Assembly (NCBI RefSeq): GCF_014651495.1
Contig: NZ_BMWZ01000002.1
Location: forward strand, 186,001-250,000
Reading direction: 5' to 3'
Source: Algibacter mikhailovii
GTDB taxonomy: Bacteria > Bacteroidota > Bacteroidia > Flavobacteriales > Flavobacteriaceae
Length of the DNA stretch: 64,000 nucleotides
A program made the position numbers and the translations under genes. Each line of letters opens with the position of its first letter. Within the stretch, counting starts at the first letter, position 1. The notes beneath the pieces were generated by a model, which worked only from the letters and a program-made list of their open reading frames with translations, made no database searches and was not told where the DNA came from. Positions 15,628 to 27,659 of this stretch are shown here, piece after piece.

Positions 15628-18492
15628 TTAATTTTCTGGAATAAAACCTTTATCACTAGCTAGAACCCATTTATCCAATTCAAAACCATCTTCTCGCATG
15701 GCGAAAGAGATGATATATTCGCCAGACGCTTCAAAATTTAAAGTAATTGTTTGGGCATAACCACAATGGTTTTCGGGGACGCGCTGCGCAGAAGACCAGG
15801 TCCATTTATTTTTCCCTTCACATAACTGTATTCTTTGTCCGCTTTCAGGCCATTCACCATCAACACCCACATGGACGCCATTATCTTCTGGCCCACTGGA
15901 ATACGCTTTGACCCAAACATAGTAAGTCCCTGGATTATTAATTTTTACTTTATACGAAACCAGACCACCAGTTCCTGGTACAGGGAAGAAATTTTCACCT
16001 ACAATTAATTCATCATCATGAGTTACTCTTGTATCTGGTAAAGCCTCAATATAGGCCTGTCCGCTAGCTGACGACGTATGATCGGCGCCTTTTGAGAAGG
16101 GCAAAGGACTTTTCTTTGACCTCAAATACCATTTTCTTGGACTTTCATTGTTAGTATTGTAATGATAATCCTCTGCCTCAACTTCTAAAAGACCGTCCTT
16201 TTCTTCAAAAGCTGAAACTTGTTCTAACTCTTCCTTTAAATTGAACCTTAAGGGATTTAAAGTTAAAGCATGCCAACGCCCCCTCGACCATGCCGATTCA
16301 TCATACTCCGGAATCATACCGTTAGTAACAGCCTTAGATGCTATCTGTAAAGTATCATTCAATTTTAGGTGAATTTTTCCTAGGCTTAATTTTGTTTTTT
16401 TAAATGATTCCGGAACTTTTGGATTTGAAACCGTCTTTAATGGTTTCCCATTGACTTTAATAACATAAATAGATTCTCCATCGTTCTCAGCAACCGTATT
16501 CAAGAATACTGAATAATATCCAGATTCACCTTTAAAGATAGTTTGAGCAGCTGCATATTTATCACGCTGTTCTGTCTTAGCAGCATTAATAGCGAAAGTC
16601 CCTCGTTTTTTCTCTTTATAATACGTAGCCTCTGCCTTATTATCAATCTCAAAATCCTCCAAAGCGTTTAAAATAATGCTGTTTTCAATGTTTGAGGCTG
16701 ATACGACTTTTTTAGATTTATTTTGAATCAAGGCTACCCAGTCTTGATCATTTGTAGGCGGTAATCCTAAGGATACTTTATCACCTCCTTTTAACGTTTT
16801 AACACTTCCCTGTTGGAGTTCACCTCCTATTTTTGGGTTGTACCATTTTACCGAGTACTTAGCTTTGGTATGGGTTAAATCGAGTTTGGTTTCTTTGACT
16901 TCCGGAAGATAAACTACATAAACAGCTCCTTTTTCCGCGAACACAAAATCATGTTCATTTTCAGTTAAGTCATCAGCCGAATGCATTGTTTCAAAAGATA
17001 TATACTTATGAAAAAACTCCATGGCATATCTTGTCTGATCCCATAATATATCACGAGACCGCCAATCTTCACATTTTAAATCATTATGTGCATACTTATA
17101 ACCAAAATACCATTCAACACCAGCGCCTCCTGCCATTAAATTACCCCATAAAACATCTGCTCTTATCTCATTATGTTCGGGATCATCAGCATCAGGTTTT
17201 GCTCCAGTATCAGCGGGTCCTATTTCATCTTGATTGACTACCCAGGGTCTACCAAAATTTTTAGACTCATTAATCCATTTTACAGTAATATCATGTACAT
17301 TATGAGGGTGATGAGTTTGCATTGAAGGACCATCTAAATACTCATAACCTAAAAGTGGTGTTAGAAACAAATCTTGAGCATCTGTATTTGCATGGGTGTG
17401 CAAGGCTATAAAATTTTGATACGGATCATTCTGTTTTATATACTTGGCCATATCTTTTCTATCCTGATCATTTTGACCTTTTGGTGTCCAACTTAATGGT
17501 CCATTTTCTTCACCCAAATTCCAAGTGATGCCTAAGTGATGTGAAAATCTTGCAATGAGCTCCCGATAATACAATTTGCGTTGCACCTTTGTTTCTCCAA
17601 TATCAAGTAATAATTCATTTTCAGTTTCTTGTGTTACAATGTGTAGCATTAAACCTAATTGATCCATATGATCAAAAACCACCTCCCATTGGTCTAGTTT
17701 ACTGCAGTCATAACGGTACCGCTCGTGTTCATTAGTCCATGGCCAAACATCCTTTCCATCACCTTGAATGTTCATTGTTAAAAAATATACGGAGTTCATG
17801 TTTTTAGACGCCAAATAGTTTAACGCTCCAATAATATTTTTTCCTTTGCCATTTTGCCAAGTAGGATCACCCTGCTTCCAATCTTGTGCATGCGGCTCAT
17901 ATTTATGCGAATCTGGTGTTTGGTCAAACTCATAATACCCTAAGAAATTCTCAGGGCTATCTGCCCCGCCCTTTATAAAGGACTCATTGGTGTCTGCATA
18001 TTTCAAATAGCGTTCTCCAACATATTTTAGCCGCCCTTTGGTTCTGAATGCAGTCCCTATTTTATCAGCTTCTCCAATGACAAAACTGCCATTAGCACCG
18101 TCAAAAGCAGTTGGTTCTCCTGCTGAAATATCACTATTTACTGCTATATTTTCACCTTTCCTAAAAGACACCTTATAACTCCATTCCCCAGCTTCATCAG
18201 GCATGAATCTTACTTTCCAAATGTTCCCACTTCGAGCACTTGTCTCTCCTGCATTTCCATCGGCTGCATAAAATCCTGGGACAATATAAGTCTTTGATTT
18301 GTTTGAAAAAACGACGTTTAATCTGTAATTTAAGAAGGGATTATTCTCATCAAACTCATTCAATGTGTCTCCTTCAAAGCTTAAGGTTACTTTATGCCAT
18401 TTTTTTAATTGACCTTCAATTTTAGCGTCTTGCGCATGCACAGAACTTAGGAATAAAACAAATAGTACTGTTGAAACATATAGTTTTTTCAT
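15628..18492 (-). CDS. Secreted DUF5060 glycoside hydrolase with C-terminal binding module
   Basis: A 954-residue exported enzyme. It has a signal peptide (MKKLYVSTVLFVLFLSSVHA), a DUF5060 beta-sandwich at about 25-115 (WHKVTLSFEG... PGFYAADGNAGET... DEAGEWSYKVSF), and a TIM-barrel catalytic region at about 140-540. The probable acid/base is E328 or E329 in TWNLGEENGP and the probable nucleophile E423 in VVNQDEIGP, both placed as in clan GH-A. A beta-rich domain follows, then a C-terminal carbohydrate-binding-like module (LLEVEAEDYHYN... GTYYVWVKAYSSG... DGFELDKWVL). It is the last gene of the acid-sugar operon and probably frees the sugar that the upstream genes consume. DUF5060 often accompanies apiosidase-like domains, but the substrate is not established. 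Confidence 0.8.
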   Translation of the reverse strand: MKKLYVSTVLFVLFLSSVHAQDAKIEGQLKKWHKVTLSFEGDTLNEFDENNPFLNYRLNVVFSNKSKTYIVPGFYAADGNAGETSARSGNIWKVRFMPDEAGEWSYKVSFRKGENIAVNSDISAGEPTAFDGANGSFVIGEADKIGTAFRTKGRLKYVGERYLKYADTNESFIKGGADSPENFLGYYEFDQTPDSHKYEPHAQDWKQGDPTWQNGKGKNIIGALNYLASKNMNSVYFLTMNIQGDGKDVWPWTNEHERYRYDCSKLDQWEVVFDHMDQLGLMLHIVTQETENELLLDIGETKVQRKLYYRELIARFSHHLGITWNLGEENGPLSWTPKGQNDQDRKDMAKYIKQNDPYQNFIALHTHANTDAQDLFLTPLLGYEYLDGPSMQTHHPHNVHDITVKWINESKNFGRPWVVNQDEIGPADTGAKPDADDPEHNEIRADVLWGNLMAGGAGVEWYFGYKYAHNDLKCEDWRSRDILWDQTRYAMEFFHKYISFETMHSADDLTENEHDFVFAEKGAVYVVYLPEVKETKLDLTHTKAKYSVKWYNPKIGGELQQGSVKTLKGGDKVSLGLPPTNDQDWVALIQNKSKKVVSASNIENSIILNALEDFEIDNKAEATYYKEKKRGTFAINAAKTEQRDKYAAAQTIFKGESGYYSVFLNTVAENDGESIYVIKVNGKPLKTVSNPKVPESFKKTKLSLGKIHLKLNDTLQIASKAVTNGMIPEYDESAWSRGRWHALTLNPLRFNLKEELEQVSAFEEKDGLLEVEAEDYHYNTNNESPRKWYLRSKKSPLPFSKGADHTSSASGQAYIEALPDTRVTHDDELIVGENFFPVPGTGGLVSYKVKINNPGTYYVWVKAYSSGPEDNGVHVGVDGEWPESGQRIQLCEGKNKWTWSSAQRVPENHCGYAQTITLNFEASGEYIISFAMREDGFELDKWVLASDKGFIPEN

Positions 18493-18552
18493 GTGGTGGT
18501 ATATTTTAATTGTTTAGTTTAATAGGTTACTTTTCAGCAATGACTTGAAAAG

Positions 18553-19578
18553 TCACAAAAACACGGGCTTATTGAGCTGAGATGATTCATAAACAGCCTC
18601 CTGTGCCTTTAGGGTTTTTAAATATTCATGTCCACTCGTTTCAAAAGGCTGATCGGCTATCATTTTATTCACAAAATCTCTTTGAAATATATAGCAGCAA
18701 TCACCTGCAAAACCAATGTCATTATGTATATAATTATGATTCCTTTCTTTTCTCCCTAATTGTTGAATGGTAATTTGTCCATCCGAATACAATCTTATAG
18801 ATCCTTTTGAACCATCAATTAAATATTCGCCAAAGGTATAACGCTGTTTTTTAAAGTTATTCTCATTAAAACGATTGGCATCCCAAATGGCATGGGCCTT
18901 GTTTTCAAAATTAAGAACCATTAATCCAGAATCTTCACCTTTTATAACAGGATTCAGACGTTTTAAAATAGCATAAACGCTCGCTACTTCTCCAGCATGA
19001 TACCTAAACGTATCAATAAAATGTACGCCTGTTTCATAAATAAGCAACTTTTTATAATCCCTAAAATAGGGTTGTCTTGACAAATAGGCATCATCACCCC
19101 AACCATCACCCATGCGGCTTCTAAAATTCAAACTAAATAAATCTCCTATTGCACCTTGATTGATGATCTTTTTAATTTCCCTATGCCAAGGTTGAAATCT
19201 GAAATTTTCATGAACTACAAATCGAACTCCCTTTTTTGACACATAATCTACAATCTTCTGCGATTCTTCAATAGTAGGTGCCAACGGCTTTTGGCATATA
19301 ATATGAACACCATGATCTGCGGCAAACTTACACATTTCAAAATGTGTTTCTGGCGGGGTTATAATATCAACAAAATCAGGTTTTTCCTGAATAATCATTT
19401 CCTTATAATCGGTGTAATGCTTTTTAACACCATAAGGCTCCATAATGCCTTTAGCCCGTTCAAGGTTTGAATTACATAATGCTGTTATTTCAACCTCAGG
19501 AATACGCGTCCAAGCCTCGTATTGAAACCTACTAAAATAACCCGCTCCTATGGCAACCCCCTTTAATTTACTTTTCAT
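18553..19578 (-). CDS. Gfo/Idh/MocA family oxidoreductase
   Basis: A 341-residue NAD(P)-dependent sugar or cyclitol dehydrogenase. The N-terminal Rossmann domain has KGVAIGAGYFSRFQYEAWTR and the conserved second-domain entry ICQKPLAPTIEESQKIVDY (the family's EKP-type lysine, here QKP). The C-terminal alpha/beta domain carries YETGVHFIDTFRYHAGE (HxxD-type catalytic region). The start overlaps the MFS gene by 11 bp, so the two are coupled. In this operon it could oxidise the free sugar to a lactone or keto-sugar, as D-apiose dehydrogenase of the same family does, but the substrate is inferred only from context. Confidence 0.85.
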   Translation of the reverse strand: MKSKLKGVAIGAGYFSRFQYEAWTRIPEVEITALCNSNLERAKGIMEPYGVKKHYTDYKEMIIQEKPDFVDIITPPETHFEMCKFAADHGVHIICQKPLAPTIEESQKIVDYVSKKGVRFVVHENFRFQPWHREIKKIINQGAIGDLFSLNFRSRMGDGWGDDAYLSRQPYFRDYKKLLIYETGVHFIDTFRYHAGEVASVYAILKRLNPVIKGEDSGLMVLNFENKAHAIWDANRFNENNFKKQRYTFGEYLIDGSKGSIRLYSDGQITIQQLGRKERNHNYIHNDIGFAGDCCYIFQRDFVNKMIADQPFETSGHEYLKTLKAQEAVYESSQLNKPVFL

Positions 19579-20833
19579 ATTTTATTTCTTTTGAAGAATC
19601 CATATACAACCAACATATAATGGCTACCAGACCCAAAAAGGCTGCCACATAGAAAAAAGGCTGCGTTGACCCTGTCCATTCTATGAGATAAGGAAAAGCC
19701 AGCGCTGTGGAAAAAGCACCTAAATTCCCTGCCATATTCATCATGCCCGATACTTTACCGGAGTTTTCTTTTCCAATATCCATACAAAAAGACCAAGAGG
19801 GGCTTAATGTCATGTCTGCCCCAAAAATGGCCACAGATAAGCATAGTACAGCCCCTAAGGCCGTATCCATATACAAGCTTGAAAGTATCCCGGTTACCAC
19901 CAATACGAATCCTACAATAGCAGGTACTTGTCTTGACAACTTCCATTTTCCGGATTTATATATGGCATCCACGGTATAACCAGACACCCAGTTGCCTAAG
20001 GCTCCTGCGAGTAACGGCATCATAGCATAAAAGCCTGTTGTTACTAGATTTAAACTATACTTATCTTTAATATAAGGAAACAACCATGTTAACATAAAAA
20101 AGAAAATAAAATTACTCCCTATATATTGAATCATGGCTAAAATGACATTCTTCGATTTTAGAATTACACCTATTGGCAATTCTACTTTCTTCGCATCGGT
20201 TTCCTTTTGTCTATTTTCAATGATATAATCTTTTTCAAGCTGAGATATACCAGGGTGTTCTTCTGGTTTATTCCTAAAAAGAACATAGAATAACCCAGCA
20301 CAAATAACCCCAATAATACCAAAGAAATAAAAAATAGATCGCCACCCCCAGGCCTCTATTAAATAAGCTACAAGAGGTAATGCAAAGGCTGCACCTAGAC
20401 GAGATCCTGAGAAGTTTATTCCCTGAAAAATCCCGCGTTCCTTCAAGGGTACCCATGAAAAAGCAGCCCGTGAAATATTAGGAAATGCACCAGCTTCTGC
20501 ACCGCCAAAAATAAATCTAAAAAAAAGCATGGACATATAGCTCCATGCTGCTCCAGTTAACGCCGTAAAAAAAGACCATAGCACCATAATAGACGTCATA
20601 ACTTTACGCACACCATATTTATCACCCATGGCACCTCCTGGCACCTGAAACAAAGCATATCCCAGAGCAAAGGCACTGAGCACCCAACCCATTTGAATAT
20701 CAGTTAGATTTAAATCTGCGCTGATGGAATCTTTGGCTGAAGAGATACAAACTCTGTCAATATACAAGAGGAGTGTAATTAAAAAGGAGCCTGCAAAGAA
20801 TCCATAACGTTTGGATGGTACTTTTTTTATCAT
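19568..20833 (-). CDS. MFS transporter, anion:cation symporter (ACS) type
   Basis: A 421-residue 12-helix permease. MGWVLSAFALGYALFQVPGG, then GDKYGVRKVMT, is the MFS loop 2-3 signature in the form seen in hexuronate, galactonate and glucarate carriers. SRAAFSWVPLKERGIFQGIN matches the ACS family's mid-protein motif. It would import an organic or sugar acid across the inner membrane with protons. It lies 5 bp after the DUF1537 kinase gene and overlaps the Gfo/Idh/MocA gene, so it is an integral part of the operon. Specificity cannot be read directly. Confidence 0.88.
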   Translation of the reverse strand: MIKKVPSKRYGFFAGSFLITLLLYIDRVCISSAKDSISADLNLTDIQMGWVLSAFALGYALFQVPGGAMGDKYGVRKVMTSIMVLWSFFTALTGAAWSYMSMLFFRFIFGGAEAGAFPNISRAAFSWVPLKERGIFQGINFSGSRLGAAFALPLVAYLIEAWGWRSIFYFFGIIGVICAGLFYVLFRNKPEEHPGISQLEKDYIIENRQKETDAKKVELPIGVILKSKNVILAMIQYIGSNFIFFFMLTWLFPYIKDKYSLNLVTTGFYAMMPLLAGALGNWVSGYTVDAIYKSGKWKLSRQVPAIVGFVLVVTGILSSLYMDTALGAVLCLSVAIFGADMTLSPSWSFCMDIGKENSGKVSGMMNMAGNLGAFSTALAFPYLIEWTGSTQPFFYVAAFLGLVAIICWLYMDSSKEIKYEK

Positions 20834-20838
20834 GGTGG

Positions 20839-22242
20839 TTAGTTTAGTTTCGTAATTATCTTGAGCAATGTATGTTCATCACCTACATTACCTGGAAATA
20901 CAATATATAATAGCTTAGGGAATTTGGTTTCACTCCCCATTTCCCAAACCGGAATACCAGCTTCAATCTGCCCTAAAACTTTCGATTGTTTCATCCCCAA
21001 TCCATGCAAAGCCAAATCATTTGATGTTATACCTCCTTTTGCTAAAAGATATTTTGGTTTTTCTTTTAAATTTTGGACCAAATACACTAACGCATTAGAT
21101 ACCTGCTTCGCTATATTGATATTTGAACCAGTATCTTTCCCCGTTACTAATTTCCTACTAGTAAATACAATGACATCCTGTCCGTTCTCAAGCTTATTAT
21201 CTATCACCTTTAACAATGCTATTAAGTAAGCCCGGGATTCATTTCCTATCACTTTTGAAACATCAACCTCAACGATGGTATCCGTCGCATAGTGTGTTAA
21301 TGCTTTATGGAGTTGTGATGACGATTTAGGGACATAAGACCCAACTATGGTTAATCCTCCTCGTTTATTGTTGGTGTCAACAATATCATCGACCTTTAAT
21401 AAACCTTTAGGCTTCAACCCAATATAGGAAGGCACAAATGAACTTGAGGTTCTATATATTAAAGATTTTCCTTGAGACTGGGCTTGTAATAAAGCACAGG
21501 TCGCTTTATCTAAATCATAATAATTTAAAGCATTTATTATACAGTGTGCACCCGAAGGTATAGTGATGATATCCTCAACTAAGTCATTAAGGTTTTTGGT
21601 ACGTATATCATGAATAGAAATCGCATAAATGCTATTGGCTTTAATTTTACCATGCGTTTTTTCTTCAATCCATTTTTTTAAATTCGCATGTTTATAACCA
21701 AACGTATGGTCCTGTGAAAATGGTGTCTCATTTACCGGGGTTAAGCCCCCTTCCCGCTGAATATAGTGATTATCATTCACAGTGACTCTTCCGCCCTCAA
21801 ACATCACAGGTATAACCATGGTAACAGCGTCATTTTCACCTACTTCTAGCTGCAGCGTTTCTATCTCAAAAAAATGACCTCTTAAGGTAGAATCACTCCT
21901 GCTTATCAACGTAAAGTCACGATCAACAAGCTTTGATGCCGCTAATATATTTTGTGCAATCTGAGCATATATCGCTTTGGATTGACTGGCTGACAAACTT
22001 CTAGAATTTGTTAGCAAAAAGAAAGTTGGAGTTCTCTTTTTGAATTCATCAACCAAAGTTTGAATTTCCCAGTTGGTTAATAACGGAATATCATAGACGG
22101 TTTGATTTCCTGTAGGATCATCATCTATAACGATGCATGTTTTATCAAGAGATGTAAATAAGGAGTTGTTGGTAGCTCTATAGTCTAGTGATTTATCTTC
22201 TGTTGGTAATAGCCGAATAATGTTTTCTTCTAAAATGCTCAT
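20839..22242 (-). CDS. Four-carbon acid sugar kinase family protein (DUF1537)
   Basis: A 467-residue ATP-dependent kinase of the DUF1537 family, whose characterised members (OtnK, DtnK, DenK, OiaK) phosphorylate tetronates, oxo-tetronates or oxo-isoapionate. The N-terminal domain has IVIDDDPTGNQTVYDIPLLT and the substrate motif RSDSTLRGHFFEIE. The C-terminal nucleotide-binding domain has LAKGGITSNDLALHGLG and YIVFPGNVGDEHTL. Its start overlaps the upstream cyclase gene's stop (TAATG). In related clusters the next enzyme is PdxA2; here the operon instead has an IPMDH-like dehydrogenase. The product is probably a 4-phospho acid sugar. Confidence 0.88.
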   Translation of the reverse strand: MSILEENIIRLLPTEDKSLDYRATNNSLFTSLDKTCIVIDDDPTGNQTVYDIPLLTNWEIQTLVDEFKKRTPTFFLLTNSRSLSASQSKAIYAQIAQNILAASKLVDRDFTLISRSDSTLRGHFFEIETLQLEVGENDAVTMVIPVMFEGGRVTVNDNHYIQREGGLTPVNETPFSQDHTFGYKHANLKKWIEEKTHGKIKANSIYAISIHDIRTKNLNDLVEDIITIPSGAHCIINALNYYDLDKATCALLQAQSQGKSLIYRTSSSFVPSYIGLKPKGLLKVDDIVDTNNKRGGLTIVGSYVPKSSSQLHKALTHYATDTIVEVDVSKVIGNESRAYLIALLKVIDNKLENGQDVIVFTSRKLVTGKDTGSNINIAKQVSNALVYLVQNLKEKPKYLLAKGGITSNDLALHGLGMKQSKVLGQIEAGIPVWEMGSETKFPKLLYIVFPGNVGDEHTLLKIITKLN

Positions 22243-22877
22243 TAATATTTTTCAATTGCTATTACTCTAGCAGGAGAACCATCACCACCACCTATTTTTA
22301 AGGGCAATGCTATAAGTTCAACGCAATTAGAGTTTAGATTTTCAAGATTAGTGAGTCCTTCAATAATAACAACACCTTCTAAAAGAATTTGATGAATTTT
22401 AGTAACCTCATCAATATTATTTAGATCGGCCACTGATGGCGGTTCAACACCAAGCATTTTAACCTCATTTAACACACACCAATGTGCCAATTCTTCAGAA
22501 ATGCGGGGTAATTCATTTCTATATTTAGCTGTATTGACGAATTGCGACCAACCTGTCCAAAAAACAAGGCTATCACCTTTTTGGAATACATCTAGCACAT
22601 CTTGCGGGATATGACTAATCTGAATTAGCCCCTTTGCTCCCAGCGTACGCATATCAATTATCCAAGCTTTACCAACAAAATGGTCTACAGGTATTTGATC
22701 AATAGTTTGATTACTTACATTAAAATGCAAGGGCGCATCCATATGCGTACCACAATGCGAATAAAACGACAAGGTGCTAGCGTTCCAGCCATCATTATCA
22801 ATAGTTTTACTGATTTCCTTAGAGAAACCAGCAAAACTATCTGTATATGTTAATGTAAGATCAACAATATTGTTCAT
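22242..22877 (-). CDS. Cyclase-family (kynurenine formamidase-like) metal hydrolase
   Basis: A 211-residue protein of the cyclase/KynB family. The metal-binding HxGTHxDxPxH-type motif is clear in SHCGTHMDAPLHFN, and GVEPPSVAD and the C-terminal ELIALPLKIGGGDGSPARVIA are family landmarks. Members hydrolyse amides, lactones or similar bonds with a divalent metal. In this acid-sugar operon a lactonase role, opening an aldonolactone made by the oxidoreductase, is plausible but inferred. It begins 6 bp after the dehydrogenase gene and overlaps the kinase gene, so it is translated as part of one mRNA. Confidence 0.85.
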   Translation of the reverse strand: MNNIVDLTLTYTDSFAGFSKEISKTIDNDGWNASTLSFYSHCGTHMDAPLHFNVSNQTIDQIPVDHFVGKAWIIDMRTLGAKGLIQISHIPQDVLDVFQKGDSLVFWTGWSQFVNTAKYRNELPRISEELAHWCVLNEVKMLGVEPPSVADLNNIDEVTKIHQILLEGVVIIEGLTNLENLNSNCVELIALPLKIGGGDGSPARVIAIEKY

Positions 22878-22883
22878 AGAGAA

Positions 22884-23930
22884 CTATAGGTTTTTAATTA
22901 CTGCATCGGCAACATCAGATGTTGTTGCAGAACCACCTAAGTCTACGGTCAAAACACCTTCAGACGTACTTTTATCAATAGCATCCATAATGTTTTGCGC
23001 GGCTTCAATCTCTCCCAAATGCTCTAACATAATGGCTGCAGACCATATTTGTCCATAAGGATTTGCTATATTATTTCCTGCAATATCTGGTGCAGAACCA
23101 TGTATTGGTTCAAACATAGATGGAAACTCCTTCTCAGGATTTACATTTCCACTACCACCAAGACCTAAACTTCCCATAATAGCACCACCTAAATCACTTA
23201 AAATATCACCAAAAAGGTTGGTTGTTAAAACCACATCAAAAATTTCTGGCTTTAAAACAAACATAGCGGTAGAGTTATCAATATACATTTGTTCGTGCTC
23301 AACATCTGGATATTGTTGGGCTACTTCTTTAATCACTCTATCCCAATAGGCCAAACTATTAATTAAGGTATTGGACTTTGTAATATGCGTGACTTTATTT
23401 CTTCTTTTTCTCGCCAATTTAAAGGCATAATGGGCTACACGCTCAATACCTTTTCTTGTAAAAACACTGGTATCTGTACCCATTCCGTTTTCTTCATCTG
23501 GCAAATACTGACCTCCCATTTGAACAAACTCTCCTTCTGTATTCTCTCTAACGATTACAAAATCAATATGTTTTTCAGAACGTAACGGTCTTGTTACACC
23601 AGGGTAAGTTCTTACCGGTCTGTAATTTACGTATTGATTAAACGATGTTCTTACCTTAAAGGTGTAATCTTTTGCAGGAAGGGTATCATCAACTGCTGGT
23701 AATCCTACAGAACCGAAATAAACGGCGTCAAATTTCTTTAAAGTTTCTAAACCATCCTCTGGTAAAAACTCACCATTTTCTAAGTAATAACCTGCTCCCC
23801 AACCAAAAGATTCTGAGCTAATACTAAAACCATGTTTTTCAGCGACTGCTTCTAGCACCCTGTATCCTTGAGGTACAATTTCGTTCCCTATACCATCTCC
23901 TGGTACTACTGCAATGTTGTAATTTTTCAC
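22884..23930 (-). CDS. Isocitrate/isopropylmalate dehydrogenase family enzyme (tartrate/D-malate dehydrogenase-like)
   Basis: A 348-residue NAD- and metal-dependent beta-decarboxylating dehydrogenase. Visible motifs are VVPGDGIGNEIVPQG, VIVRENTEGEF (substrate arginine region), the lysine in THITKSNTLI, the metal site NLFGDILSDLGG and EPIHGSAPDIAGNNIANP in the nucleotide loop. The overall form is nearest to TtuC/DmlA-type tartrate or D-malate dehydrogenases, not leucine-pathway LeuB. It lies 10 bp behind gntR and in front of the DUF1537 kinase operon genes. PdxA2, the usual partner of that kinase, shares this fold, so this enzyme may oxidise and decarboxylate the 4-phospho acid sugar. That role is inference. 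Confidence 0.85.
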   Translation of the reverse strand: MKNYNIAVVPGDGIGNEIVPQGYRVLEAVAEKHGFSISSESFGWGAGYYLENGEFLPEDGLETLKKFDAVYFGSVGLPAVDDTLPAKDYTFKVRTSFNQYVNYRPVRTYPGVTRPLRSEKHIDFVIVRENTEGEFVQMGGQYLPDEENGMGTDTSVFTRKGIERVAHYAFKLARKRRNKVTHITKSNTLINSLAYWDRVIKEVAQQYPDVEHEQMYIDNSTAMFVLKPEIFDVVLTTNLFGDILSDLGGAIMGSLGLGGSGNVNPEKEFPSMFEPIHGSAPDIAGNNIANPYGQIWSAAIMLEHLGEIEAAQNIMDAIDKSTSEGVLTVDLGGSATTSDVADAVIKNL

Positions 23931-23940
23931 TTTTTTGTAT

Positions 23941-24561
23941 TTATTTATTTAATAGTATTCTCGATTTTTCAATATGTTCTCTAGCATATTTTTCCGCTTG
24001 ATCTGCATTCCCGTTTTCTATGGCATTAATAATTTTGAAATGCTCATGTAACGTTTCTTCTGGAGGCCTCACCAGTCCATGCCCTGTCACCTTATCATGA
24101 ATATTGCTAAAGAAATATATCTTATCCAAAGGGGCATTATTGGTTAGTTTAATTAGAAGTGAATGAAAATGTTCATCTGCTCTAGTATAGGCATCCAAAT
24201 CTATATTTGATTGTGAAGAAAAAGGCATAAAGCATGCTTTAAGTTGTTTCACAACGGCTTCGTCCTTTTTTATTGCCAAAACTCTAGCTGCCATACCTTC
24301 AATAGCCTCGCGGCAGATATAAATATCAAATATTTCCTTTTCATCTAAAGACCGCACAAACATCCCTCGTCTTGGTATACTCTCTACAAGATATTCATTC
24401 TCTAAAGCTAATAAGGCTTTCATTAAAGGGGTTCTACTAACCCCTAACAATTCTGATATTTTTTCTTGAACGATTTTCTCGCCCTGCTTAAGCTCTCCAT
24501 TACGAATCATGTCTTTTAAACGCAAATAAATGGGCTGGCTTAAATCTGTATGTTCAATCAT
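23941..24561 (-). CDS. GntR-family transcriptional regulator (FCD/FadR subfamily)
   Basis: The product is 206 residues from the ATG at 24561. The winged helix-turn-helix (about 5-70) has the GntR pattern QPIYLRLKDMIRNGELKQGE, ISELLGVSRTPLMKAL and IPRRGMFVR. The ligand-binding FCD domain follows, with metal-ligand type residues in DAYTRADEHFHSLLI and the final HFKIINAI...HI. An upstream in-frame ATG at 24636 would add 25 residues (including several Cys), but those codons overlap the 28-bp palindrome and have no family similarity, so I prefer 24561. It heads the operon and is expected to sense a pathway intermediate. Confidence 0.9.
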   Translation of the reverse strand: MIEHTDLSQPIYLRLKDMIRNGELKQGEKIVQEKISELLGVSRTPLMKALLALENEYLVESIPRRGMFVRSLDEKEIFDIYICREAIEGMAARVLAIKKDEAVVKQLKACFMPFSSQSNIDLDAYTRADEHFHSLLIKLTNNAPLDKIYFFSNIHDKVTGHGLVRPPEETLHEHFKIINAIENGNADQAEKYAREHIEKSRILLNK

Positions 24562-24570
24562 ATAAAAGTA

Positions 24571-24598
24571 AATTGTGTTTTGTATACAAAACACAATT
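24571..24598. promoter_or_regulatory. Perfect 28-bp palindrome, probable GntR operator
   Basis: The half-site AATTGTGTTTTGTA (24571-24584) is followed directly by its exact complement (24585-24598). The core TTGTATACAA fits FCD-type GntR operators. It lies 10 bp before the gntR start, where a bound repressor would block transcription of the whole operon. Confidence 0.8.
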
Positions 24599-25517: not shown

Positions 25518-27659
25518 CTAGTCTACCCAATGCAACACATCTTTTATAACGGACCAGCGTGGTTCCACAATATGAGCACCCCCACCTTCAATCCAATGCT
25601 CAAATAATTGCTTAATAGTTCCATCTTTTTCCTTAAGTTCTAACCATGTATTTACATAAAGCAGCCAAGTATCGTCTTTTACCAAAGGGTAAGTAGTCGG
25701 AATTTTAATCATATCTGGTTGTAAAACATTTACATTATATGAGGGATAAATGATGGTCCATGCCGACCCAGCTTCTGCCGAGTACAACAGGGCATCCATT
25801 TTTTCTTTGTTCTTCTTAAAAAATGGTCTCGGAGAACTGACTTTAACCAATTCTGCATTAGGTAAAAGCTTTTTTATCTTATCCTTAAAATAGTTGTTTG
25901 TATATCCTATTTTTAAATCCTTTTGAGCTAACAAGGCGCTTTTTGATTTAAATTTGGCCCTATTATAATCGGGTACTATCAATGACGCAGTCTGGTCTAG
26001 ATAGGAATTTGACAAGTTATAACTTTCCAAGCCTTGTGTAGTAGATACTAATCCGGACATTACAATATCTATTTGTCCTCTAAATAATAAAGTTTTTATT
26101 TGGTTGGGTGTAACCGCGTAAAATTCCGGTTTCACACCTAATTCCTCTGCCAAATTATAGGCCATTTCAATATCAAATCCCACCATTTCCGCCTTGTCAT
26201 TTTTAAAAGCAAAAGGCAAATGATTGGCCATATAGCCTACTCGTAACACCCCTCGGTTTTTAATTGTTCTAATCTGATTATAAGATTTTCTCTGGGTCGT
26301 ATCGGAAATTAAAACCGAGACATCTTTAATTTGTCCCGTTTTAAATTCTTTAGATAAATTCATAACTATAAAACTTTCATATTGCTCACTTTCACCTAAA
26401 GCATATGCCAAATAGACCCTTGTTCCAATTAACGCAAATGAAGTTAAAACGATTCCAACTAAGACACCTCGTATTAATCTAGGCCACAATATGTGTATAC
26501 TTCCTACGGTCATTTTTACTGCGATTATAGTTAAAGCAACAAGATGAATGGCTCCTAAAACAACACGAATTCGGTCAGTATAAACGCTAGAAATAATAAA
26601 CAGCTGAAACATTTCTTGAGGCAACTTCATTAAATCTAATAAAAATGGGATTCCCGTAACGGGTGCTACAAAGCTACTAAACAGGGTAGCGCCTACAAAG
26701 GTGATGTTTTCTAGAGCGTTAAAAGAATTGCCCATATACCAACCAACAAAAGGTACAAATACAAAAATGACAAAAGTACCTAAGTTTGGAAAAGGGTAAG
26801 CCAAAGGCATCATAATATCAGCCTTTGCAGAAGTTTCATCATCTCTCCCATCTTTATATCGCATTAATTTTTTAACGTTACTAATAAGCTGTGGCAAGAC
26901 CACAATAATTTTTCCAGTTGCAAAAATGGTTAATAAGGTACTTTTAGTCGCGCCAAACAACTCTTTAGGCTTAATACCTGTGGTTACAGAAATTAATAAA
27001 GGCAGCCAATAGAAGCCCAACAATAATACGGCAATGGTATAAATTATAATATAGGCATGGAGTCGTTGAATCTCATCAAAAGACATGGTGCCCGCATTAT
27101 AAGCTGCGATTGCGAAAACGCCATATGGTGTGATCTTTATCACCATTTTATTTATTTGATTCAAAGCATCTGCAATCACATCCATGCTATGCAGTAGATT
27201 CTTTTTTTGATCTATTTTACTTAATCCAATACCTAAAAAAATACTAAACAAAACAACCGCTGGTACAATGTTTTTAGCCATTGAACCAAATGGGTTGGAA
27301 GGGATATAAAGCTCCAAGAAATTTAAAGGTTGCTCCACGGCAATAATAGATGGTTTAAAAAACGAGGATGCAGACCAACTAGGCAATGCCAAAGGAAGGA
27401 GTACCAATGTTACTACGCCAATGGCTAACAAAAGAAATAAAATTTTCAGACCATTAATGACCAATGCCTTTCCTTCTGTTAAAGACATACGTCCTAAATT
27501 GGCAATGATTGAGACCATGATGTATGGTAAAACAGTCATTTGTAACAACCCTACAAAACCATCACCTATTACTTGAAAAAAAGACACATACTCGCCAAAA
27601 AACAATCCAACTGCAACGCCTAACAAAAGACCAATTATTATTTTCTTAGATAAACTCAT
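25518..27659 (-). CDS. Dicarboxylate/amino acid:cation symporter fused to a periplasmic binding domain
   Basis: A 713-residue fusion. Residues about 1-430 are a DAACS (GltP/DctA) transporter: MTVLPYIMVSIIANLG, a GTFVIFVFVP-like reentrant region and SSFVAPVTGIPFLLDL. Residues about 455-700 form a family 3 solute-binding domain (RGVLRVGYMANHLPFAFKN, VGFDIEMAYNLAEELGV, QIDIVMSGLVST, KIGYTNNYFKDK). The binding domain would sit in the periplasm, tethered to the carrier, and present an amino acid or dicarboxylate to it. The frame is continuous, so this is a real fusion. It is monocistronic in this window. Confidence 0.9.
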   Translation of the reverse strand: MSLSKKIIIGLLLGVAVGLFFGEYVSFFQVIGDGFVGLLQMTVLPYIMVSIIANLGRMSLTEGKALVINGLKILFLLLAIGVVTLVLLPLALPSWSASSFFKPSIIAVEQPLNFLELYIPSNPFGSMAKNIVPAVVLFSIFLGIGLSKIDQKKNLLHSMDVIADALNQINKMVIKITPYGVFAIAAYNAGTMSFDEIQRLHAYIIIYTIAVLLLGFYWLPLLISVTTGIKPKELFGATKSTLLTIFATGKIIVVLPQLISNVKKLMRYKDGRDDETSAKADIMMPLAYPFPNLGTFVIFVFVPFVGWYMGNSFNALENITFVGATLFSSFVAPVTGIPFLLDLMKLPQEMFQLFIISSVYTDRIRVVLGAIHLVALTIIAVKMTVGSIHILWPRLIRGVLVGIVLTSFALIGTRVYLAYALGESEQYESFIVMNLSKEFKTGQIKDVSVLISDTTQRKSYNQIRTIKNRGVLRVGYMANHLPFAFKNDKAEMVGFDIEMAYNLAEELGVKPEFYAVTPNQIKTLLFRGQIDIVMSGLVSTTQGLESYNLSNSYLDQTASLIVPDYNRAKFKSKSALLAQKDLKIGYTNNYFKDKIKKLLPNAELVKVSSPRPFFKKNKEKMDALLYSAEAGSAWTIIYPSYNVNVLQPDMIKIPTTYPLVKDDTWLLYVNTWLELKEKDGTIKQLFEHWIEGGGAHIVEPRWSVIKDVLHWVD

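Follow-up and report, generated by a model that had tools for sequence, protein, structure and literature searches.

Two lineages of IPMDH-fold dehydrogenases without the catalytic tyrosine occupy one slot of a conserved DUF1537 kinase operon tentatively assigned to sugar-acid breakdown

Introduction

Two described pathways come closest to the operon that we analyse here, a leftward cluster of seven genes in a 64,000-nucleotide stretch of the Algibacter mikhailovii genome (NZ_BMWZ01000002.1, positions 186,001 to 250,000 of the forward strand; hereafter the window, in whose numbering coordinates are given). The operon joins a kinase of the DUF1537 family with a dehydrogenase of the isocitrate/isopropylmalate dehydrogenase (IDH/IPMDH) fold. 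In the D-threonate route, the kinase DtnK acts together with PdxA2, and the fold of PdxA is related to that of IDH and IPMDH; in IDH and IPMDH themselves a catalytic tyrosine protonates the carbon after decarboxylation. The oxidative breakdown of D-apiose, reportedly the subject of a study by Carter et al. in 2018, relies on the enzymes ApsD, ApnL, ApnO, OiaK and OiaX, whose steps we assign provisionally to gene families. According to the accessible part of one report, in which the gene families are unnamed, the route runs through a dehydrogenase, a lactonase, an oxidoisomerase, a kinase and a decarboxylase (D-apiose dehydrogenase, D-apionolactonase, D-apionate oxidoisomerase, 3-oxoisoapionate kinase and 3-oxoisoapionate-4-phosphate decarboxylase), and a marine strain grows on D-apiose (PMC11747546). 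RuBisCO-like proteins are placed in the D-apiose route in the accessible part of PMC6302742, and the accessible text of PMC10971088 names DtnK and DenK.

Like the D-apiose route, the operon and its relatives (the module) unite a Gfo/Idh/MocA (Gfo) dehydrogenase of apparently the same subfamily, a lactonase candidate, a nicotinamide adenine dinucleotide (NAD)-type oxidoreductase and a DUF1537 kinase in one cluster; the GH140-like glycosidase is a further likeness. Unlike in that route, the lactonase candidate belongs to the sequence-unrelated cyclase family, an IPMDH-fold enzyme lacking the tyrosine would stand in for the oxidoisomerase of the PGDH_C/KARI-like type, the kinase comes from a distant DUF1537 subfamily and there is no RuBisCO-like decarboxylase. 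No RuBisCO-like gene (PF00016) was detected in the window genome, with positive controls in 5 of 14 cases, and tblastn found none in 105 loci. A tblastn search with the protein of L130 found no oxidoisomerase-like gene in the module (0/52 loci, of which three are duplicates); PF16896 (PGDH_C-type) had no match in the window genome, nor in any control genome. The likeness to the D-threonate route lies in a DUF1537 kinase whose partner belongs to the wider IDH/IPMDH/PdxA fold class. Here, unlike in that route, the partner is a PF00180 protein that is sister to DmlA or groups with LeuB, and not PdxA.

Results

The dehydrogenase of the window (22884-23930, minus strand, GTG start) matches PF00180 (Iso_dh) at 4e-93 and scores above the cut-off of the tartrate dehydrogenase model TIGR02089 (476.6 vs 470.4 bits); its nearest solved structure is the tartrate dehydrogenase (TDH) of Pseudomonas putida, 3flk. 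Two kinds of dehydrogenase occur in the module: type I, with 61-95% identity to the window protein, in Bacteroidota and at L050, and type II, with 37-40% identity, in Verrucomicrobiota and Thermogutta. At the position of the catalytic tyrosine, phenylalanine (Phe135, in the motif EGEFVQ of the window protein) was found in 40/40 type I rows (the window and three duplicates among them) and in all six readable type II rows. Three further type I loci, one type II paralogue (L199) and two new type II loci have phenylalanine as well; five more phenylalanine rows from the type II hosts were genes that this count already covers. The tyrosine is kept in Escherichia coli DmlA, 3flk, 1vlc and 1w0d, in each of the 27 other PF00180 rows from Bacteroidota and in all six other PF00180 rows from type II hosts. 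The IPMDH-like gene of L067 is unreadable and stands outside both this count and the tree described below; L032, with a broken frame, stands outside the 40-row alignment.

A maximum-likelihood tree of 44 rows, calculated with the Phe/Tyr column left out, included 17 type I and 9 type II sequences hand-picked from a larger set. Grouping with D-malate/tartrate dehydrogenase, together with activity as such an enzyme and failure on phosphorylated acid sugars, had been named in the earlier note as an outcome that would refute its proposal. The type I enzymes, 48% identical to DmlA, are indeed sister to the clade of DmlA and TDH (96/94; that clade itself 100/100), but they form a clade of their own (100/99) and lack the tyrosine. 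They also differ in the substrate loop, which reads DDTLPAxDYTF in type I and PDHISLWGSLL in the tartrate/D-malate dehydrogenases. Type II groups with LeuB rows (87/78). The phenylalanine and tyrosine states require two changes on this tree, and a single clade of type I and type II was rejected (approximately unbiased test, p-AU 0.00037). Types I and II are thus two separate lineages in the same operon slot, each with phenylalanine in place of tyrosine.

Both types keep the three substrate arginines (40/40 and 6/6), Lys185 and three aspartates, residues to which we assign the roles that we presume for them, and for the catalytic tyrosine, in IPMDH-like enzymes. In the type I loop over the beta substituent, Asp 81, Asp 82 and Thr 90 are each present in 40/40 rows and a lysine or arginine at position 87 in 39/40; positions 87-90 are a gap in all six type II rows. 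Nothing on the role of the tyrosine is found in the accessible part of PMC7511310, and a literature search otherwise gave nothing usable.

The kinase was detected in 22 of 299 family genomes (E up to 1e-20, window included), and in all 22 the order is IPMDH-like gene, cyclase, DUF1537 kinase, major facilitator superfamily (MFS) carrier. The Gfo gene follows the carrier in 21/22 short loci and was seen on a longer locus for the remaining one (L043); in one family genome the IPMDH-like frame is broken (G051, L011/L032). PdxA was found in 0/105 loci by tblastn with the window genome's own PdxA, which lies at C2:584608, about 375 kb from the operon. Together with the constant order, this bears out the view of the earlier note that the kinase is accompanied by an IPMDH-like enzyme in place of PdxA.

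Outer genes are less constant. Among the 20 family loci fetched (11-20 kb), a GntR homologue is present in ten and a second regulator cluster (LacI-type by Pfam for the member in L031) in nine, with both types in one locus and neither in two; ten loci encode the catalytic domain of the glycosidase and one more has a C-terminal remnant alone. Searching named genomes with an alignment of the kinase gave at least 586 confirmed loci, of which we analysed the best 80. Within these 80, IPMDH-like and cyclase genes accompany the kinase in 27 loci, 24 have the MFS and Gfo genes in addition and 14 the glycosidase, and the module hosts belong to Bacteroidota, Verrucomicrobiota and Planctomycetota (Thermogutta, Sedimentisphaerales). 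Approached from the dehydrogenase, all five type I enzymes found in 395 genomes of the phylum (61% identity or more, window included) lie in a module with the same order, and the next-best two rows (L191, L192) are LeuB genes which, by eye, are situated inside leucine operons. A type II enzyme occurs in 3 of 288 Verrucomicrobia genomes, namely L064 and two new ones, both of the latter in the module. Duplicate contigs (L044=L024, L089=L040, L102=L042) were dropped from the kinase tree and the neighbour counts, and further overlaps between the genome sets are possible. A scan of viral contigs revealed no relative of the kinase, and a plasmid search returned seven records, none more than 36.3% identical, from Firmicutes, Actinobacteria and Deinococcus.

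The module is real and conserved across phyla and no local accident. The neighbourhood search and phylogeny advised in the earlier note, which had Bacteroidota in mind, gave a recurring pairing there and also in Verrucomicrobiota and Planctomycetota, with two dehydrogenase lineages. In the open-access literature, most subscription papers lying outside the search, we found no account of a pairing between a DUF1537 kinase and an IPMDH-like or tartrate dehydrogenase, which agrees with the earlier suggestion of an undescribed variant.

The kinase itself (20839-22242, minus strand) belongs to a DUF1537 subfamily with the motif DDDPTG and matches SBD_N (7.8e-42) and NBD_C (4.9e-32), both above cut-off. 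With the D-threonate kinase model NF047819 it reaches 50.5 bits, far under the cut-off of 450, and blastp gave no match to the kinase of the apiose cluster or to E. coli YgbK. In a quick tree of 101 rows, module kinases fall mostly into two blocks, one per IPMDH-like type, with nine label changes; the blocks are mixed with loci without a visible IPMDH-like gene, some of which end at a contig edge. YgbJ-like genes lie beside other DDDPTG kinases in 6/105 loci, and a DDDPTG-type kinase adjoins an oxidoisomerase-like gene in one of the best 80 named loci (L055).

In Chloroflexi, Firmicutes and other groups, at loci L055, L057, L062, L068, L073, L085, L087, L088 and L120, kinases of the DDDPTG type have split genes nearby that look by eye like transketolase genes (clusters c13 and c15). 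These clusters apparently represent a different acid-sugar route.

The cyclase-family metal hydrolase (22242-22877, minus strand; PF04199, Cyclase, 5.8e-27) has kynurenine formamidase and isatin hydrolase as its nearest structures, and its GTHMDAP motif is invariant in 20 rows. We propose that it is a lactonase.

The Gfo oxidoreductase (18553-19578, minus strand) has a GFO_IDH_MocA domain, and its top match among solved structures is 5uhw (2.5e-43, the next at 1e-19). We take 5uhw to 5uib to be structures of D-apiose dehydrogenase; a literature search for the codes gave no confirmation. In Rhizobium lusitanum, a homologue 93% identical to the 5uhw type adjoins RuBisCO-like, DUF1537 kinase and PGDH_C/KARI-like genes, and the same cluster encodes a 628-residue protein without Pfam match. 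Six module Gfo proteins, the 5uhw type and two alphaproteobacterial Gfo proteins form one clade (100/99), which stands apart from 10 of the 11 other Gfo proteins in the window genome, the eleventh (L223) being a weak match left out of the tree; the module Gfo of L064 groups with the apiose type (95/92). By sequence, the window Gfo appears to belong to a subfamily that includes the type found with the D-apiose gene set. The two Gfo proteins encoded on Aminobacter and Antarctobacter plasmids (L126, L127) stand in a different pathway, with thiamine pyrophosphate (TPP) enzymes and an epimerase-type protein adjoining. The cluster shared by L126 and L127 also encodes a xylose-isomerase-like TIM barrel and a protein of 222-224 residues, the L126 copy of which has no Pfam match.

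The glycoside hydrolase (15628-18492, minus strand) starts with a signal-like N-terminus (by eye), and domain search and structure model together describe it as DUF5060, a GH140-like TIM barrel and Collagen_bind_2, the last found in 20/21 family members; a weak GH115_C match lies under its cut-off. No significant sequence match was found in PDB (best 0.043). A model built with 21 relatives reached a mean predicted local distance difference test (pLDDT) of 88.9 and replaced an AF2 model from 10 sequences (pLDDT 58). Its top structure match is the GH140 apiosidase 8t9w (Z 32.6, root-mean-square deviation (rmsd) 2.9, 373 residues), followed by GH140 BT_1012 (5msy; Z 31.2, rmsd 3.0 over 381 residues), 3kzs and 4qfu (titled GH5; Z 30.4), then 4n0r (BVU_0362) and the mannanase ManDH5 (Z 28.0), both with alignments that take in the N-terminal domain too, and further folds at 23.8 or less. 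Like the GH140 apiosidases, which are its best fold match over catalytic plus C-terminal domain, the glycosidase would thus be GH140-like in its modelled fold, and a fold does not show specificity; unlike them, it has a DUF5060 domain in front and is only about 16% identical. The Pfam model Apiosidase (PF13204) matches 5/21 members of the glycosidase family (E up to 5; best 1.9e-6).

Two observations concern this gene in other genomes. In Algibacter onchidii (L024, 11413-12546) it is cut down to residues 604-954 of the window protein, with no catalytic domain. A 3-keto-disaccharide hydrolase (PF06439) adjoins the module glycosidase in L112 (2725-3621, tested) and L038 (18067-18726, by eye).

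The remaining members of the operon are the carrier and the regulator. The MFS carrier (19568-20833, minus strand; MFS_1 2.8e-63) is closest to the D-galactonate-transporter subfamily 2A0114 of the anion:cation symporter (ACS) type, TIGR00893, with 253.9 bits, under the cut-off of 395, so that its earlier description as an ACS-type carrier agrees with its nearest subfamily. The GntR/FCD-family regulator (GntR 3.6e-16, FCD 8.8e-18) extends over 23941-24561 on the minus strand if read from the first ATG, with an open frame to 24636; the earlier note had put this end at 24598. Gaps calculated from the ends of the open reading frames (ORFs) are 10, 6, -1, 5, -11 and 60 bases from GntR to the glycosidase, and ORFs and domain searches alike confirm the leftward seven-gene operon as first described. 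Outside it, a 713-residue ORF (25518-27659, minus strand) combines a sodium:dicarboxylate symporter domain with an extracellular solute-binding domain (SBP_bac_3), and a 96% identical copy adjoins the module in L024.

Discussion

We propose that the module serves the catabolism of a sugar (most likely D-apiose or a branched sugar close to it) by way of its sugar acid, with oxidation by the tyrosine-less IPMDH-fold enzyme followed by phosphorylation, and we give this reading a probability of about 0.38. The secreted GH140-like glycosidase would free the sugar, the MFS carrier would take up the sugar or its acid, the Gfo enzyme would oxidise C1 to yield a lactone and the cyclase-family hydrolase would open it to (2R)-apionate; the order of glycosidase, oxidoreductase and lactonase, already proposed in the earlier note, is plausible. 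D-apionate is a (2R)-hydroxy acid, the configuration oxidised by IPMDH and D-malate dehydrogenase, and has no beta-carboxylate; the tyrosine would therefore be unneeded. The IPMDH-fold enzyme could oxidise the (2R)-hydroxyl with NAD+, without the usual beta-decarboxylation because the tyrosine is lacking, and its product would be an oxo-acid, formed directly or via the ketol-acid shift that D-apionate oxidoisomerase performs in the described pathway. Phosphorylation of the oxo-acid by the DUF1537 kinase would follow, and the product may then lose CO2 and enter the pentose-phosphate pool. The substrate, each reaction and the order of the IPMDH-like enzyme and the kinase are what we infer, and D-apionate oxidation would unite the phenylalanine, the glycosidase fold and the Gfo subfamily. 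As regards the enzyme itself, two lineages of the IDH/IPMDH fold may have been recruited independently, each losing the tyrosine to become a non-decarboxylating sugar-acid dehydrogenase or an oxidoisomerase analogous to D-apionate oxidoisomerase, a tentative idea with the odds somewhat against it. To our knowledge, such chemistry is not known for this fold. Aceric acid was set aside as a substrate, its C5 methyl leaving the kinase no site.

Several observations weigh against D-apiose. Ranked by E-value in Foldseek, ManDH5 and 4n0r (BVU_0362) stand above GH140; the window glycosidase has no PF13204 match at E up to 5; and hhalign of the glycosidase family against a GH140 alignment was non-significant (probability 1.6%), and only this profile alignment places the WNLGEEN segment opposite the GGD motif of GH140. 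Classical apiosidase co-occurs weakly with the module (7/22 vs 44/277 genomes, Fisher p 0.07). Neither the kinase nor the cyclase has a convincing blastp match to the kinase and lactonase of the apiose cluster, and the window Gfo is 40% identical to the Aminobacter/Antarctobacter plasmid proteins vs 30-33% to the apiose type. The ACS-type carrier suggests import of an acid and not of a neutral sugar, and the final decarboxylation has no gene assigned to it. The substrate loop leaves the type of ligand unsettled: the basic residue at position 87 of type I could hold a phosphate, and together with the three kept arginines it would suit a ligand with two carboxylates or one bearing a phosphate. 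In genome G679, a phenylalanine-bearing type II paralogue (L208, 8741-9769) lies outside the module: it shares a contig with module L118 but is about 37 kb away from it, and the 20 kb read contain no module partners. Neighbours vary as well, from a GH78 rhamnosidase and an ulvan-lyase-like gene (Pfam, L031) to xylose, arabinose and KduI-like genes (by eye), and fail to single out apiose.

The phosphate-binding possibility leads to the route that the earlier note had favoured, in which the kinase phosphorylates an acid of the tetronate type and the phospho-acid is oxidatively decarboxylated by the IPMDH-like enzyme as a replacement for PdxA2; tetronate 4-phosphate would yield dihydroxyacetone phosphate (DHAP). 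Kinase and IPMDH-like enzyme are constant neighbours and none of the 105 loci holds a PdxA or RuBisCO-like gene; threonate 4-phosphate resembles tartrate with one carboxylate replaced, so retention of the three arginines would fit, as would the basic residue at position 87 in 39/40 type I rows. Yet this very position is a gap in type II (6/6), the tyrosine used in decarboxylation has been replaced by phenylalanine twice, the kinase scores far below the D-threonate kinase cut-off and there is no evident glycoside source of tetronate. We regard this route as unlikely, and less favoured because of the phenylalanine and because the glycosidase fold and the Gfo point to apiose, for which the known route phosphorylates after oxidation. 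It is decidedly unlikely, in our estimate, that the chemistry is as we propose and another sugar acid is the substrate, although the loss of the tyrosine and the synteny are independent of apiose and the closer Gfo relatives act in the different pathway of Aminobacter and Antarctobacter; the glycosidase fold and the Gfo subfamily favour apiose.

A uronate could also be degraded, the glycosidase freeing a uronic acid, the ACS carrier importing it, Gfo and cyclase forming an aldarate, the IPMDH-like enzyme removing a carbon and the kinase phosphorylating the new terminal CH2OH. The carrier type, the ulvan-lyase-like gene of L031, the KduI-like genes seen by eye in L042, a sulfatase-type cluster in 10/44 loci (one member by Pfam) and beta-glucuronidases among the lower fold matches of the glycosidase (Z about 19) are in line with this. 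We consider it improbable, given that the GH140 fold match is far better, that a six-carbon aldarate does not present the malate-type 1,4-diacid of the IPMDH fold, and that the neighbour genes in question are inconstant. Finally, the score above the TIGR02089 cut-off and the position as sister (96/94) of DmlA from E. coli and TDH from P. putida might simply mark a normal D-malate/tartrate dehydrogenase that happens to lie in a sugar operon. An own clade (100/99) that has lost the tyrosine and lies in the module in 5/5 cases of the phylum sample, and a second, separate lineage with the same loss in the same slot, make this highly improbable.

The annotation of such genes calls for caution, as the window enzyme passes the NCBI tartrate dehydrogenase cut-off yet is without the tyrosine of that enzyme and stands in a different pathway. 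Naming the cluster a tartrate dehydrogenase operon conflicts with the tested tyrosine feature, and D-apiose operon is a working hypothesis. If our proposal is true, the module would give Verrucomicrobiota and marine Bacteroidota a new breakdown route for a sugar acid, perhaps that of D-apiose, a branched sugar present in pectin and in aquatic plants. It would also represent a natural experiment on one fold under one pathway, with two losses of the same catalytic residue.

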